From positions 1 to 21,039 of the IMG/VR virus record IMGVR_UViG_3300047281_000035: a DNA stretch of 21,039 nt; one strand, given 5' to 3'. The position numbers were made by a program, and so were the translations under genes. Source of the DNA: a virus. Under the pieces are notes generated by a model. The model saw nothing but the letters and a program-made list of their open reading frames with translations. It made no database searches and was not told the origin of the DNA. This document shows, one piece after another, positions 1 to 21,039 of the stretch; positions within the stretch are counted from its first letter, which is position 1, and each line of letters starts with the position of its first letter.

Positions 1-1578
1 AGTAGCTAACTCCATTGCTTGCCACCAATTATATGATCCGTAAGTACTAGAACCTGAACCGCCATACATTAAAGGTACTTTTGGCGGACTAGAACCGTCG
101 GCAATTGTTACGTTATATTTACTAGAGCCATTTGTAATTGCATCCACACCTGTCAAATAAATATCCATCCAAAACCCGCCGGCAATAAGTGCCATGCCGC
201 GCGGATCTATTGCAGTCGGACGGAATTTTAAATCCCAAATTGAGTATTCATTGATCTGTGGAGTTGTATTGCCACCTGATTGAGCCGTTGCGTTGCCACC
301 TGGTGCGTAATGAAAACCGCCGATTTTGCGACTATTGGCAACTGGTGGGGAAGTGAAATTGGTAGTAGCTTCTAATGAACCGTCAGGTTTAACCCAAATT
401 GCATAATCGGTACCAGCCACGGGGCTTCCTGGCATTGTGACAGCAGTAGATGATGCAATAACTTGAACAGTTCCGTTCACTTCAATTTTTAATTGTTGAG
501 AAGTTGATACCGTAAAGTTTCCAGTTTTAGTAAAAGCCACAATATCCGAATTGGCTTTTTTGAATAATCCTGAATTGCCAATTGAAACTACACCCGTTGC
601 CGGATTCAACAAAACTACTTTATCAAGTGTTGCGTCATATTGAAACAAGAGCCAATGACCTGCGCCTGAAATATCGCCCAAACTTAACGCTGAGTTATTT
701 CCTTTGACAATTGTTTTAGCCCCCAAAACGCCGTTATTCGCACTAAAAGTTGGCGTTGTTGTGGCATTAGCAGAAGTCGCTCTAACAAAAAATGGCACAC
801 CTTCCACCCAACGACGAGGAGCAGGATTAAAAGTCGCAGTAATAGCATCCGCAGTTCCAGCCGCAAAAGCCACTTGAAAACTTAAAAGGGAAATAGCATC
901 TTGAAGACTACTATAAATATTTGTGCCGTCCCCAATGATAGTTTGCACAGAATTGACAATTGCACCTGTGCCAGCACTGGTTTTGCAAGTAATACTGTAA
1001 GGGCCTGTCGTATTATTAATAACTACCCATTGACGTGCAATGTCAGGAAAAATTAAATTTAAATTTGCAGTCAATAAACCACTAATAATGATTGTCGGTT
1101 TTCCATATTGCAATTCACTTAATGTGACGTTTGCGTTCGTCATCGTAATTGCAGATACTCCAGCCGTATAATCAGGAACCCATCCAGCGGCTAAAGCGCC
1201 TGCAGCTTCGGGATTTGTGGCGTTATTGTCCACAGTATTAAACCAATATCCTAGCCCATCGGAACGTAGAATGCGCGCACCTTTAGGATAGCCATTAACA
1301 TTTGCATTAGTGGCAAAAGCGGCATCGTAAACATAACCGCCACCGGCGTTTGCCCATCGAACAATTGCAGACAATTCATACAAAATACCGTTCATATCCT
1401 CACCGGATGGAGGTACGCCTCCCGCAGCCAATGGGGTACGAGTTAAAGGTGGAAAGCCGTCAGTTAATGAAGCTGCGCCGCCAGTAATACCAATTTGAGA
1501 ATCAACGGGAATAGTATTTTTTGCGCCACTTTGAGCGAAAGGTAAAAGAAGTTTACCTGGGGAATTAATTAGCTGCAT
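1..1578 (-). CDS. mtd: Receptor-binding tail fibre with Mtd-like C-terminus (partial, 3' end beyond window)
   Basis: An open frame of 526 codons runs without a stop from the ATG at 1578 to the left edge, so the C-terminus is missing. Residues 1-235 match the usual N-terminus of myovirus tail fibres (GITGGAASLTDGFPPLTRTP at 30-49, PPSGEDMNGILYE at 56-68), which probably docks on the baseplate. Residues 236-330 look like a common fibre shaft domain (KTIVKGNN at 288-295, GAGHWLLFQYD at 305-315). From about residue 337 the sequence follows remembered Bordetella phage BPP-1 Mtd almost without gaps: VAFTKTGN 347-354, KIGGFHYAPG 418-427, INEYSIWDLKFRP 442-454, DPRGM 458-462, KYNVTIADGS 487-496. In Mtd this is the beta-sandwich and the start of the C-type-lectin fold that displays DGR-variable residues. 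The variable repeat would lie in the missing ~135 residues. The start overlaps the end of the preceding gene by 14 bases. The Mtd match is by recall, not by a search. Confidence 0.88.
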   Translation of the reverse strand, partial: MQLINSPGKLLLPFAQSGAKNTIPVDSQIGITGGAASLTDGFPPLTRTPLAAGGVPPSGEDMNGILYELSAIVRWANAGGGYVYDAAFATNANVNGYPKGARILRSDGLGYWFNTVDNNATNPEAAGALAAGWVPDYTAGVSAITMTNANVTLSELQYGKPTIIISGLLTANLNLIFPDIARQWVVINNTTGPYSITCKTSAGTGAIVNSVQTIIGDGTNIYSSLQDAISLLSFQVAFAAGTADAITATFNPAPRRWVEGVPFFVRATSANATTTPTFSANNGVLGAKTIVKGNNSALSLGDISGAGHWLLFQYDATLDKVVLLNPATGVVSIGNSGLFKKANSDIVAFTKTGNFTVSTSQQLKIEVNGTVQVIASSTAVTMPGSPVAGTDYAIWVKPDGSLEATTNFTSPPVANSRKIGGFHYAPGGNATAQSGGNTTPQINEYSIWDLKFRPTAIDPRGMALIAGGFWMDIYLTGVDAITNGSSKYNVTIADGSSPPKVPLMYGGSGSSTYGSYNWWQAMELAT

Positions 1579-2233
1579 GGATTGCACCTTCCTGAATAAA
1601 TGGGGCTTGACCAAATGGCGCTGCCGAACCCGTTCCAGCTTCAGAAAAGCCGAAAACGGGGGTATTCGTTGTAATAAGTATGGCATTTACCCCAGCAGGG
1701 CGAGGTAATGCCCCCGATTGCGTCATAATTGCAAATTCATATGGGGTCAGTAAGAATTCAAAGGTATACCTTAGACTCATACCGCCCGTGTCGTTAGCAT
1801 AACACCGCCCCCGACCCGCAAACAAGTTCTGTAAAAGTTGATTAATAGAAGGCGCATTTGTGGCCGAAATATTTGCCAAAGCTTTTACTAATATTAATTG
1901 CCGATATGCATCATCGCTTAATTGATAAGTTTGAGTTGCCGGATCAATTCCACTATAAAAAGGTTGTTCCGCAAAAGGGTAAGAGCCTGGAAGAGCTTCA
2001 TTAAATCCGAAATAATTAGGTGCATCGGGGACTAATATCTCTCGGCTAATGTTGACAATTTCACCCCAAATATCAAGCCCAAAACCTTGGGCGGTTTCAA
2101 CATTCCAAACAAAATTATAAAAGCTATCAAAGTCAGCACGTGGATCTAAATACTCATTCATATTCTGAATAAGTTTAGTTATCGTCGCACTATTACCATA
2201 TTGGCTAATAATCGTTTGTTCAACATTAATCAT
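1565..2233 (-). CDS. DUF2612-type tail/baseplate protein
   Basis: This 222-aa protein resembles the DUF2612 family, found between the gpJ-like wedge protein and the tail fibre in many myophages. By position it corresponds to the P2 gpI / Mu gp48 slot and may link fibre to baseplate; that role is inferred. An early GFGLDIWGEIV stretch (50-60) is typical of the family. There is an internal repeat: FGFNEA...PFAEQPFYSG (75-95) is echoed near the C-terminus by FGFSEA...PFGQAPFIQEG (194-216). The ATG at 2233 overlaps the upstream stop in an ATGA arrangement, and its own end overlaps the tail fibre start, so the three genes are probably translationally coupled. Confidence 0.85.
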   Translation of the reverse strand: MINVEQTIISQYGNSATITKLIQNMNEYLDPRADFDSFYNFVWNVETAQGFGLDIWGEIVNISREILVPDAPNYFGFNEALPGSYPFAEQPFYSGIDPATQTYQLSDDAYRQLILVKALANISATNAPSINQLLQNLFAGRGRCYANDTGGMSLRYTFEFLLTPYEFAIMTQSGALPRPAGVNAILITTNTPVFGFSEAGTGSAAPFGQAPFIQEGAIHAAN

Positions 2234-8259: not shown

Positions 8260-8505
8260 TTATTCTTGTTTTGCTATCGCTTGATTGTAATCGTCGGTAC
8301 TAACAATTTCTAGCATATCGTAAACGTCTCGAACTCCGTAAACAGTATCCAATTCATGTAAAGTGGCGATTCTTTTCGATAGCAAAGTCCCTATTATTGG
8401 TGAAACATTTAAGTATTCCGCGAACCTTTTTTGCGGGCCGTCGCTTGCAATTCGCTTGAAATGGAGGGGGCGACGACCTTCAAAAAACCCACGTGTAATT
8501 TCCAC
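8260..8505 (-). CDS. GT extension reading frame (-1 frame), made by frameshift from G
   Basis: This open stretch lies in the -1 frame relative to G and overlaps its 3' end by 97 bases. It opens just after an in-frame TGA near 8511, has only a GTG as possible start at 8505, and lacks a convincing ribosome-binding site, so it is not expected to be translated alone. If ribosomes slip at 8487-8481, G residues 1-129 join 73 residues beginning EGRRPLHFKRIASDGPQKRF and ending AIAKQE, giving a GT protein of about 202 aa spanning 8260-8867. In lambda, the T part binds tail tube subunits while G binds the tape measure. The stop lies four bases before the tape measure start. Confidence 0.8.
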   Translation of the reverse strand: MEITRGFFEGRRPLHFKRIASDGPQKRFAEYLNVSPIIGTLLSKRIATLHELDTVYGVRDVYDMLEIVSTDDYNQAIAKQE

Positions 8506-8867
8506 ACTTCAGCGCGAAGTTTTACTCGCGTTGTTATTTCTTCAATATCCGATTCAATTAAGTTACGAACGACATGAGGTTTACTAGAATCAGGCATGAT
8601 TTGCACACAAGCCCACATTTCATCTAATAACGGTTCAGCTACATCCCATTTAAGCCCCGCAAGAGCCTTAATGCCGACCTCAGCCATGCCCGCCATACCC
8701 ATACGCTCAAATCCTTCGGGAACTTCAACACCGCCCGCCATAAGCGCTAAAATCGCTCTCATAGCCCACGCTTCCGCTTTACTTGCGGGTAATTCCGTAA
8801 TTACAAAAATTTTACCTTGATCCCGACCTTCGTCTTGAACCGTGTAATTAATAGTCGATCTTGCCAT
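8409..8867 (-). CDS. Tail assembly chaperone G (short form)
   Basis: A 152-aa protein in the place of the lambda gpG-type chaperones that coat the tape measure during tube assembly. The frame extends upstream to a GTG at 8918, but the ATG at 8867 (MARSTINYTV) is preferred because GGAGAGG lies eight bases upstream. Residues include ITELPASKAEAWAMRAI and PEGFERMG, common in tail assembly chaperones of this phage type, and the C-terminus is helical and basic (ATARKKGSRNT). A T TTT TTG heptamer at codons 128-129 and a -1 open frame beyond it indicate that a fraction of ribosomes continue as the longer GT form. It lies between tail tube and tape measure, the usual place. Confidence 0.85.
   Translation of the reverse strand: MARSTINYTVQDEGRDQGKIFVITELPASKAEAWAMRAILALMAGGVEVPEGFERMGMAGMAEVGIKALAGLKWDVAEPLLDEMWACVQIMPDSSKPHVVRNLIESDIEEITTRVKLRAEVWKLHVGFLKVVAPSISSELQATARKKGSRNT
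8436..8478 (-). promoter_or_regulatory. Predicted frameshift-stimulating stem-loop
   Basis: Two bases after the slippery heptamer, GGTCGTCGC (8478-8470) can pair with GCGACGGCC (8444-8436) in nine base pairs including one G-U, around a 25-base loop. The position just downstream of the heptamer fits a stimulatory RNA structure. The two-base spacer is shorter than usual, so the lowest pairs may open when the ribosome is at the slip site. Confidence 0.55.
8481..8487 (-). other. Slippery heptamer for -1 frameshifting (T TTT TTG)
   Basis: Read on the minus strand in the G frame, the codons are GGT TTT TTG, giving the X XXY YYZ heptamer T TTT TTG. Both tRNAs can re-pair after slipping back one base (TTT and TTT), and the next codon GAA enters the GT frame. 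It lies at the very beginning of the overlap between the two frames. Confidence 0.8.
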
Positions 8868-8873
8868 TTTGAT

Positions 8874-8901
8874 ACCTCTCCGTACCGTTGAACCTCTCCG
8901 T
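8874..8901 (-). promoter_or_regulatory. Duplicated ribosome-binding site before chaperone G
   Basis: The ten-base sequence ACGGAGAGGT occurs twice on the minus strand (8901-8892 and 8883-8874), 18 bases apart. The proximal copy places GGAGAGG at good spacing for the ATG at 8867, which decides the start of G. The distal copy has no start codon at suitable distance other than this one. Confidence 0.6.
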
Positions 8902-8912
8902 TTTACTATGGT

Positions 8913-8967
8913 GTCCACGGGGTGCGCTGGGAGAGGGCAACGCAGGCATAAAGCCCTTCCCGTGGAC
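8913..8967 (-). promoter_or_regulatory. Large hairpin between tail tube and chaperone G
   Basis: GTCCACGGG (8967-8959) and CCCGTGGAC (8921-8913) form a perfect nine-base-pair stem on the minus-strand RNA. An inner GGGAAGGGC (8961-8953) could alternatively pair with GCCCTCTCCC around 8938-8929. There is no T-tract after the stem, so it is not a standard intrinsic terminator. It may stabilise the tail tube transcript or limit read-through into the chaperone genes; this is inference. Confidence 0.55.
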
Positions 8968-10936: not shown

Positions 10937-11440
10937 TTACAAGTCCGCTGGAATGATTGCATTTGGGATAGCCTCATCTGCAAATTCTTGCGGAACAGTA
11001 ACAATTGGATTGTATTGTATAGATACTGTAAGTGTCCATCGACTTTCATATTGCTTTTCTCCCGTAATTAGGGGAGATTGAAGGCCGTCGGATGTATACA
11101 GCGGTTTAATATTCGCTGGGAATTGTGCAAACCCCCATTGCGAACGAAAGGCTGCTTTTGCAACTTTGCAAAAATCGCCTGCTTGCACTCCATAAAAATC
11201 AATCTGAATATCAATACGCGTTGCACCATGAATATTGGCGGTATTGTCATCGGGTTGATAATTTTCATACGGTATTGCCAAATCTACCTCTAGCAATTCG
11301 GTCAGAATGACACAAGGGCTAGCAGGCATGGCAACTCGATTAGTTTGAGCGCGAGCAATCTCAGCACCATCTACTAAAGGGGTTAAAAAATCTGCGAGTG
11401 CGTCAATGACTTCATCAACAATAATACTGGGCGTATACAT
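10937..11440 (-). CDS. Tail terminator / neck protein (LIC_12616, gp12-like)
   Basis: A 167-aa protein similar to the LIC_12616 / neck terminator gp12-like family, which caps the end of the tail tube and sheath and joins it to the head. Typical parts are VILTELLEVDLAIPYENY, ATRIDIQIDFYGVQAGDFCKVAKAAFRSQ divided by a turn, and PLITGEKQYESRWTLTVSIQY ahead of the C-terminus. The frame extends to a TTG at 11458, but the ATG at 11440 (MYTPSIIVDE) is preferred: AGGTG lies seven bases upstream and the ATG overlaps the upstream stop as TAATG. Position immediately before the sheath gene supports the call. Confidence 0.85.
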   Translation of the reverse strand: MYTPSIIVDEVIDALADFLTPLVDGAEIARAQTNRVAMPASPCVILTELLEVDLAIPYENYQPDDNTANIHGATRIDIQIDFYGVQAGDFCKVAKAAFRSQWGFAQFPANIKPLYTSDGLQSPLITGEKQYESRWTLTVSIQYNPIVTVPQEFADEAIPNAIIPADL

Positions 11441-11808
11441 TAGGTCACCTGAAGGCAAATAGCCGCTTTAGTCCAATTTGGCCAGCTTTCAAGAACTTTT
11501 ACCACTAGCCAATTTTGACCATCAATTTGAATAATATCTCCGCCAATTTCATTTGGACGAATAACTCCAGCTAAAACTCCACGTAAGTAAATGGCTCTAA
11601 AAGTACCTTGAATATTTAAACCGTCCAATTGTTTCAGATCGTCACCATCTAAAGCCTGAATCTGCCCTGGACCAGTGATTGGAGTAGCGTAAGACGGCTC
11701 TTGCCTGCGTCCAGCACCAATCGTATATCCAGTAGAACGCAAAAGCGTCACAATTTTATTTTCATTGACTGTGGATGACACGCCATTAGCTATTGTTCTC
11801 AAATCCAT
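11440..11808 (-). CDS. Probable head closure (stopper) protein
   Basis: A 122-aa protein between the gp10-like protein and the tail terminator, where head closure proteins usually lie. The sequence alternates short beta strands: FRAIYLRGVLAG, GGDIIQIDGQNWLVVKVLESWPNW divided over ~24 residues, and AICLQVT, a pattern shared by head-tail joining proteins that form a small beta-barrel ring. The N-terminus is helical (TIANGVSSTVNENKIVTLLR) and a middle stretch (PITGPGQIQALDGDDLKQLD) is conserved in similar phages as I recall. It starts with a TAATG overlap and ends with another. I recognise the fold type and synteny, not a well-studied named protein. Confidence 0.65.
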   Translation of the reverse strand: MDLRTIANGVSSTVNENKIVTLLRSTGYTIGAGRRQEPSYATPITGPGQIQALDGDDLKQLDGLNIQGTFRAIYLRGVLAGVIRPNEIGGDIIQIDGQNWLVVKVLESWPNWTKAAICLQVT

Positions 11809-12251: not shown

Positions 12252-12631
12252 GGTATATACCGGAATCTTCGCAAACTAATTGTTGCCTGCCAAAAGGCGG
12301 CACCGTATTGAGTTTGAGTAAACCAAGCATGAGAGCCTGGAGTTAAATACTCGAGACTAGCAGATACTGAACCTTCAGTCGCTTGAGATACTCTTCCCAC
12401 AGGCTTAGGTAATCCATCTGCACTCAATACGCCGTTCAAATAAGCAATATGCGCAGTAAGCATATTAAGCAAAGTCGCTCGACGTGTTAAATCTTGTACC
12501 GGACTATCGTCCGAATTTGATAAATAAAGCCCAGCTTCCCCAAAAAATGTCGACAGTCTAGCATCTGAGATTGCGGTAAATTCTGGGTAGCGGGCCTTAA
12601 AGGTCGTCGCGTTAAAAGTAACGGACGGCAT
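12233..12631 (-). CDS. Head-tail adaptor, DUF4054 family
   Basis: A 132-aa protein matching DUF4054 proteins: FKARYPEFTAISDARLSTFF near the N-terminus, a helical LLNMLTAHIAYLNGV core, VGRVSQATEGSVSASLEY, and the C-terminal WFTQTQYGAAFWQATISLRRFRYIP divided here at ~25 residues. These proteins resemble small helical adaptors (HK97 gp6 / SPP1 gp15 type) that bind beneath the portal. The gene follows the 111-aa gene by five bases and overlaps the gp10-like gene by 19 bases. Placement at the head-to-tail transition supports the assignment. Confidence 0.87.
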   Translation of the reverse strand: MPSVTFNATTFKARYPEFTAISDARLSTFFGEAGLYLSNSDDSPVQDLTRRATLLNMLTAHIAYLNGVLSADGLPKPVGRVSQATEGSVSASLEYLTPGSHAWFTQTQYGAAFWQATISLRRFRYIPCPTRF

Positions 12632-20909: not shown

Positions 20910-20939
20910 ATTCTAGCCGAAAATAATCACAAAAGGCAA
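20910..20939 (-). promoter_or_regulatory. Candidate sigma70-like promoter before terS
   Basis: On the minus strand, TTGCCT (20939-20934) and TAGAAT (20915-20910) are separated by 18 bases and lie just upstream of the terS ATG. The -10 box differs from consensus at one position, the -35 at two. The leader would be only a few bases long. Late phage promoters often need phage-coded activators, so this is tentative. Confidence 0.35.
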
Positions 20940-20954
20940 ATACCCCTATACCCC
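20938..20954. repeat. 17-bp direct repeat, copy 1
   Basis: AAATACCCCTATACCCC occurs here and again at 21023-21039, 85 bases apart, in the gene-free stretch upstream of terS. Each copy holds two TACCCC motifs eight bases apart. It may be a binding site for TerS or a regulator. Confidence 0.8.
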
Positions 20955-21022: not shown

Positions 21023-21039
21023 AAATACCCCTATACCCC
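21023..21039. repeat. 17-bp direct repeat, copy 2 (at window edge)
   Basis: Identical to the copy at 20938-20954. It ends at the last base of the window, so the repeat or a larger array may continue further right. Confidence 0.8.

Follow-up and report, generated by a model that had tools for sequence, protein, structure and literature searches.

The Mtd protein of Bordetella phage is rewritten by a reverse-transcriptase system, and this rewriting leads to a change of receptor. In phage BPP-1 (NC_005357), the diversity-generating retroelement (DGR) responsible has the order mtd, avd, template repeat (TR) and brt. On a wider scale, more than 30,000 DGRs have been catalogued by Roux et al. (2021; PMC8144416); their lineages occur mainly in phages and are aimed at host-attachment proteins, the viral DGRs acting on tail and host-attachment proteins and being broadly active in nature. 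In strains of Treponema denticola, targets without TR or reverse transcriptase (RT) carry variable repeats (VRs) that differ from the TR of other strains mostly at adenines, and these were read as remnants of lost DGRs (PMC4891356). A literature search on DGR loss returned nothing relevant beyond these two papers. In its available text, the former is a catalogue of intact DGRs, and deletion derivatives, which we found here, are not its subject; the latter concerns a bacterial DGR, whereas here phage fibres with deletion junctions are described and an intact sibling element was identified. Because DGR-driven receptor switching is already established in phages, one more Mtd-type fibre is unsurprising, and the phage-fibre deletion series reported below is a modest extension of known DGR loss.

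We compared with these systems a phage DNA of 21,039 bases, which constitutes an entire virus record (hereafter the window) and ends before the expected site of VR, TR and RT. Its left end is occupied by a tail fibre gene (Table 1) that starts at an ATG at 1578 (MQLINSPGKLLLPF...), the same start as in the relatives L012 and L020, within an operon of structural genes (DUF2612, baseplate J, DUF3383, tail lysozyme, portal and terminase). A preliminary description of this DNA had rightly described the fibre and given its coordinates, and had proposed that the protein follows Mtd from about residue 337. Our searches bear this out. The fibre matched six Mtd sequences of the PDB by phmmer (1yu0 to 1yu4 and 2iou; E 1.5e-63 to 1.9e-63, 218 bits), and the alignment, which had been suggested for residues 330-526, pairs residues 338-525 (358-545 in the longer query) with Mtd residues 56-245 with short gaps only; it encloses all the motifs that had been named, that is KIGGFHYAPG, INEYSIWDLKFRP, DPRGM and KYNVTIADGS. 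The fibre was also recognised by Pfam mtd_2nd (8.5e-19), by the phrog_11262 tail protein family (2.8e-66) and by our own Mtd profile (342 bits, profile positions 1-188 of 314). This homology to the Mtd body places it among the Mtd-type receptor-binding proteins. Since Mtd has 381 residues, the window fibre lacks about 135 residues, the entire VR among them, as had been estimated, and complete relatives do continue for 124-139 residues beyond the cut, with a C-type-lectin end in which the VR is present. Judged from these matches, the gene product is a receptor-binding tail fibre made of a separate N-terminal part and an Mtd-type tip, and it comes from a tailed phage that has baseplate genes. 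The likeness to BPP-1 extends to the relatives of the window, which have the same gene order and adenine-specific differences between TR and VR. Unlike in BPP-1, the tip is joined to a long N-terminal stretch of fibre, the phage has baseplate J, hub, DUF2612 and DUF3383 genes, and any DGR would lie outside its record.

Table 1. Features at the left end of the window
Feature	Positions	Strand	Evidence and remarks
Tail fibre gene	1..1578	-	526 codons visible; open at base 1, cut by the contig end; PHROG tail fibre families
Mtd-like region, about Mtd residues 56-245; VR and C-type-lectin end outside	4..570	-	phmmer, Pfam mtd_2nd, own Mtd profile
N-terminal, baseplate-side fibre part; different tail-fibre family, phrog_12796	565..1578	-	PHROGs E 3.7e-74
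DUF2612 gene directly upstream of the fibre; synteny marker	1565..2233	-	Pfam DUF2612 3.1e-57

Within the window, which stops short of the expected RT site, no match to RVT_1 was detected and our own Avd and RT profiles gave no match, in line with the earlier statement that it contains no RT; neither of the two repeats, TR and VR, lies in it, and Rfam and tRNA searches of the window likewise gave no match. Two exact 24-mers from the left end retrieved no overlapping viral contig, and none of the 24-mers of the end segments of the window is shared with any collected relative locus.

We analysed the state of the DGR in Mtd-type relatives at large. A scan of viral contigs with the Mtd-like part gave 136 relatives, 80 of which were kept; Mtd, Avd and Brt profiles, started from the BPP-1 sequences and refined by iteration over the loci of the relatives, were then used in a second viral scan and in a scan of genome contigs. 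Among 127 distinct Mtd-type entries, tandem copies being counted separately, 74 have an RT in the locus, 26 have none (a class for which at least 1.7 kb of downstream DNA was required) and 27 are cut, so that a DGR RT is present in 74 of the 100 distinct fibre entries with readable downstream DNA. The RT-positive loci show the order mtd, avd, TR, brt, as in BPP-1, with avd in most of them; part or all of avd is retained in 2 of the 26 RT-less entries. In the 67 TR/VR pairs that could be aligned (seven further, poorly aligning entries were left out), mismatches fall on 910 of 1658 template adenines versus 74 of 5444 other bases. Close RT-positive pairs revealed differences concentrated in the VR, for example 3/810 outside and 19/135 inside for L167/L172, 5/813 outside and 13/135 inside for L007/L008. 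Adenine-biased mismatches together with VR-concentrated differences demonstrate that the Mtd-type family is a real DGR target family.

The relatives that share the gene order of the window indicate where its own cassette would lie. L001, L004, L012 and L020 have the structural genes of the window in common, at about 68-72% DNA identity. L020 carries a complete DGR, with the fibre extending to 10954, avd at 10977-11351, TR at about 11358-11478 and the end of the RT open reading frame at 12604; its TR and VR differ at 8 of 24 adenines and at no other base. L084, with the same gene order as the window, has a full cassette too. L012 is without a cassette, its fibre stop being directly followed by the last codons of brt and by the next gene. 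The end of the window corresponds to position 10564 of L020, which means that 2.05 kb to the left of base 1 would hold the entire cassette. If L020 is taken as a guide, the fibre would stop about 390 bases beyond base 1 on that side, with avd at about 410-790, TR at about 790-920 and the RT gene at about 1050-2050 bases. We consider it probable, from sequence comparison, that a BPP-1-type DGR lies in cis just beyond base 1, with the VR at the fibre end followed by avd, TR and brt. As in BPP-1, the TR RNA would be reverse transcribed with random bases placed opposite adenines, and the mutagenised cDNA would replace the VR, altering receptor-binding residues. The Mtd homology of the fibre was observed directly, and so was the cassette with its adenine signature in the relatives; that this phage would carry the cassette too, and in an active state, is our inference. 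The preliminary description had predicted a DGR at this very place. For most relatives the prediction holds, the cassette lying where expected and TR and VR differing almost only at adenines; for this phage, whose record ends at base 1, it is weakened by the absence of the cassette from the same site in about a quarter of Mtd-type relatives. An Mtd-type C-terminus alone is no guarantee of a DGR, and the loci assembled here warn against taking an Mtd-type fibre by itself as proof of one.

The nearest relatives bear on the chance that the cassette has been lost. A tree of the shared Mtd region unites the window with L001 (87% identity, 100/98 support) and groups it with L001, L002, L003, L004 and L012; L011, which has an RT, lies outside, and the set with L011 has a support of 96/91. 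In a second tree, L182, also with an RT, falls within the neighbourhood of the window as well. No RT or TR was found in L002, L003 and L012, the nearest three relatives whose downstream DNA can be read, and each retains a remnant of the 3' end of brt. An intact sibling element, L231, belongs to the L002/L003 group: right of the junction, it and L003 share 99.6% identity over 784 bases, and left of the junction its avd end agrees with L003 at 28 of 28 bases. L003 corresponds precisely to an L231-type element with a deletion across GGGCAAA, found both in the avd end and in the brt end. In L002, the mtd stop (TTAAGGGC) is joined to the same brt spot as in L003; the stop of L012 is joined to a different brt point than that of L002, implying at least two losses. 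In the repeat core, the TR of L231 differs from the VR of L002 at adenines only, and from that of L003 at adenines and one other base; the two VRs differ from each other at 18 positions, 17 of which are TR adenines (binomial p about 1e-10). As these alignments read, the fibre tips of L002 and L003 were written by a DGR that was then lost, and we infer that tropism would then be fixed. We considered the differing VRs of L002 and L003, which have their right junction in common, as proof of trans diversification after RT loss, a view that we rejected as unnecessary, since two separate deletions from a DGR-bearing population suffice, the brt-side GGGCAAA recombining separately with the avd end (GGGCAAA) or with the mtd stop (GGGC). 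Trans action or VR exchange could also account for them. The grouping of the window with these phages, their brt remnants and the exact deletion in L003 would all fit a lineage that once had a DGR and in which the phage of the window deleted its cassette, leaving a VR fixed from the lost element and a stop followed by the next gene. We regard such a loss as possible but rather unlikely, given that most relatives carry the cassette, that the intact L231 sits inside the L002/L003 group and that the sister of the window, L001, breaks at the edge of its VR.

This break is not isolated. The contig of L001 breaks off 283 residues into the Mtd region, where the first variable codons lie, and those of L004, L052, L065, L188 and L196 end likewise at Mtd-region residues 281-287. 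Such VR-edge ends account for 6 of the 17 contigs truncated within Mtd, an outcome with a probability of about 5e-5 if breaks were uniform. Three contigs, L242, L247 and L248, start at the 3' boundary of the variable core. In the DGR-positive record IMGVR_UViG_3300005613_000250, whose ends are L052 and L254, the two ends overlap by 140 bases, 109 of which are identical and are followed by 8 differing sites, all in the VR. Since the overlap differs in the VR only, the break there accompanies more than one version of the VR. (This record is a phage genome, circular or permuted, that the assembler opened at the hypervariable site.) For L001, the position of the break suggests VR heterogeneity in its population. 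The window ends some 90 residues ahead of the VR, which makes its own break uninformative in this respect. Our estimate for a DGR in cis in the phage of the window follows from the family rate of 74%, from the nearest readable kin, which are negative (though two of them have an intact sibling), and from the break of the sister, which is positive.

In several Mtd-type loci the next gene follows at a clean junction that bears no recognisable scar, and phages with a common baseplate module differ in their fibre tips. Tips are swapped between phages, so that gene order does not fix the state of the tip. The clean junctions and the differing tips would be expected if the phage had taken up its Mtd-type tip with no DGR attached, or if the tip stemmed from a branch that had always lacked a DGR in cis. 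We judge this origin highly improbable, because the scarless members still have divergent VR-like cores and because the nearest relatives of the window show an intact DGR or the scar of one.

Taking the group as a whole, we tentatively suggest, as a doubtful generalisation at present, that the DGR is a removable cassette: tips would be hypermutated at adenines, some lineages would lose avd, TR and RT by deletion between short repeats and retain the tip that was written last, with its tropism fixed, and the phage of the window could be frozen in this way or be diversified anew in trans by siblings that bear a DGR. In a search for a remote RT that might serve the RT-less forms, no Brt-like match was found in the records of L002, L003, L012, L017, L018, L038, L044 and others (several of which are fragments), nor in two Haematospirillum assemblies; Jiella pacifica gave one weak Brt-like match of 26%. 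The relatives form a useful set, with intact elements and deletion derivatives at one site, readable scars and VRs traceable to the template of a sibling, and they let one ask when phages abandon targeted hypermutation and fix their tropism.

Mtd-type fibres with divergent VR-like ends also occur in bacterial genome contigs, in loci that lack both Avd and RT, namely L221, L222, L223 (Haematospirillum) and L224-L226 (Jiella). Some loci without RT hold tandem Mtd-type fibre genes that differ in their VR cores (L018, L019, L022 with three copies, and L021 with two visible). In L048, L071 and L011, two Mtd-type genes stand beside one DGR, one of the L011 copies being broken by frameshifts.

Two further features of the window were noted. 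On the minus strand at 8260-8918, a tail assembly chaperone open reading frame (8409-8918) overlaps one of 81 amino acids in another frame (8260-8505), with CAAAAAAGG in the overlap; from its sequence, this resembles the programmed -1 frameshift that is usual in tail chaperones. At the opposite end from the fibre, a 17-base direct repeat, AAATACCCCTATACCCC, is found at 20938-20954 and 21023-21039; one copy lies exactly at the right end of the contig, and the repeat may explain the break there.
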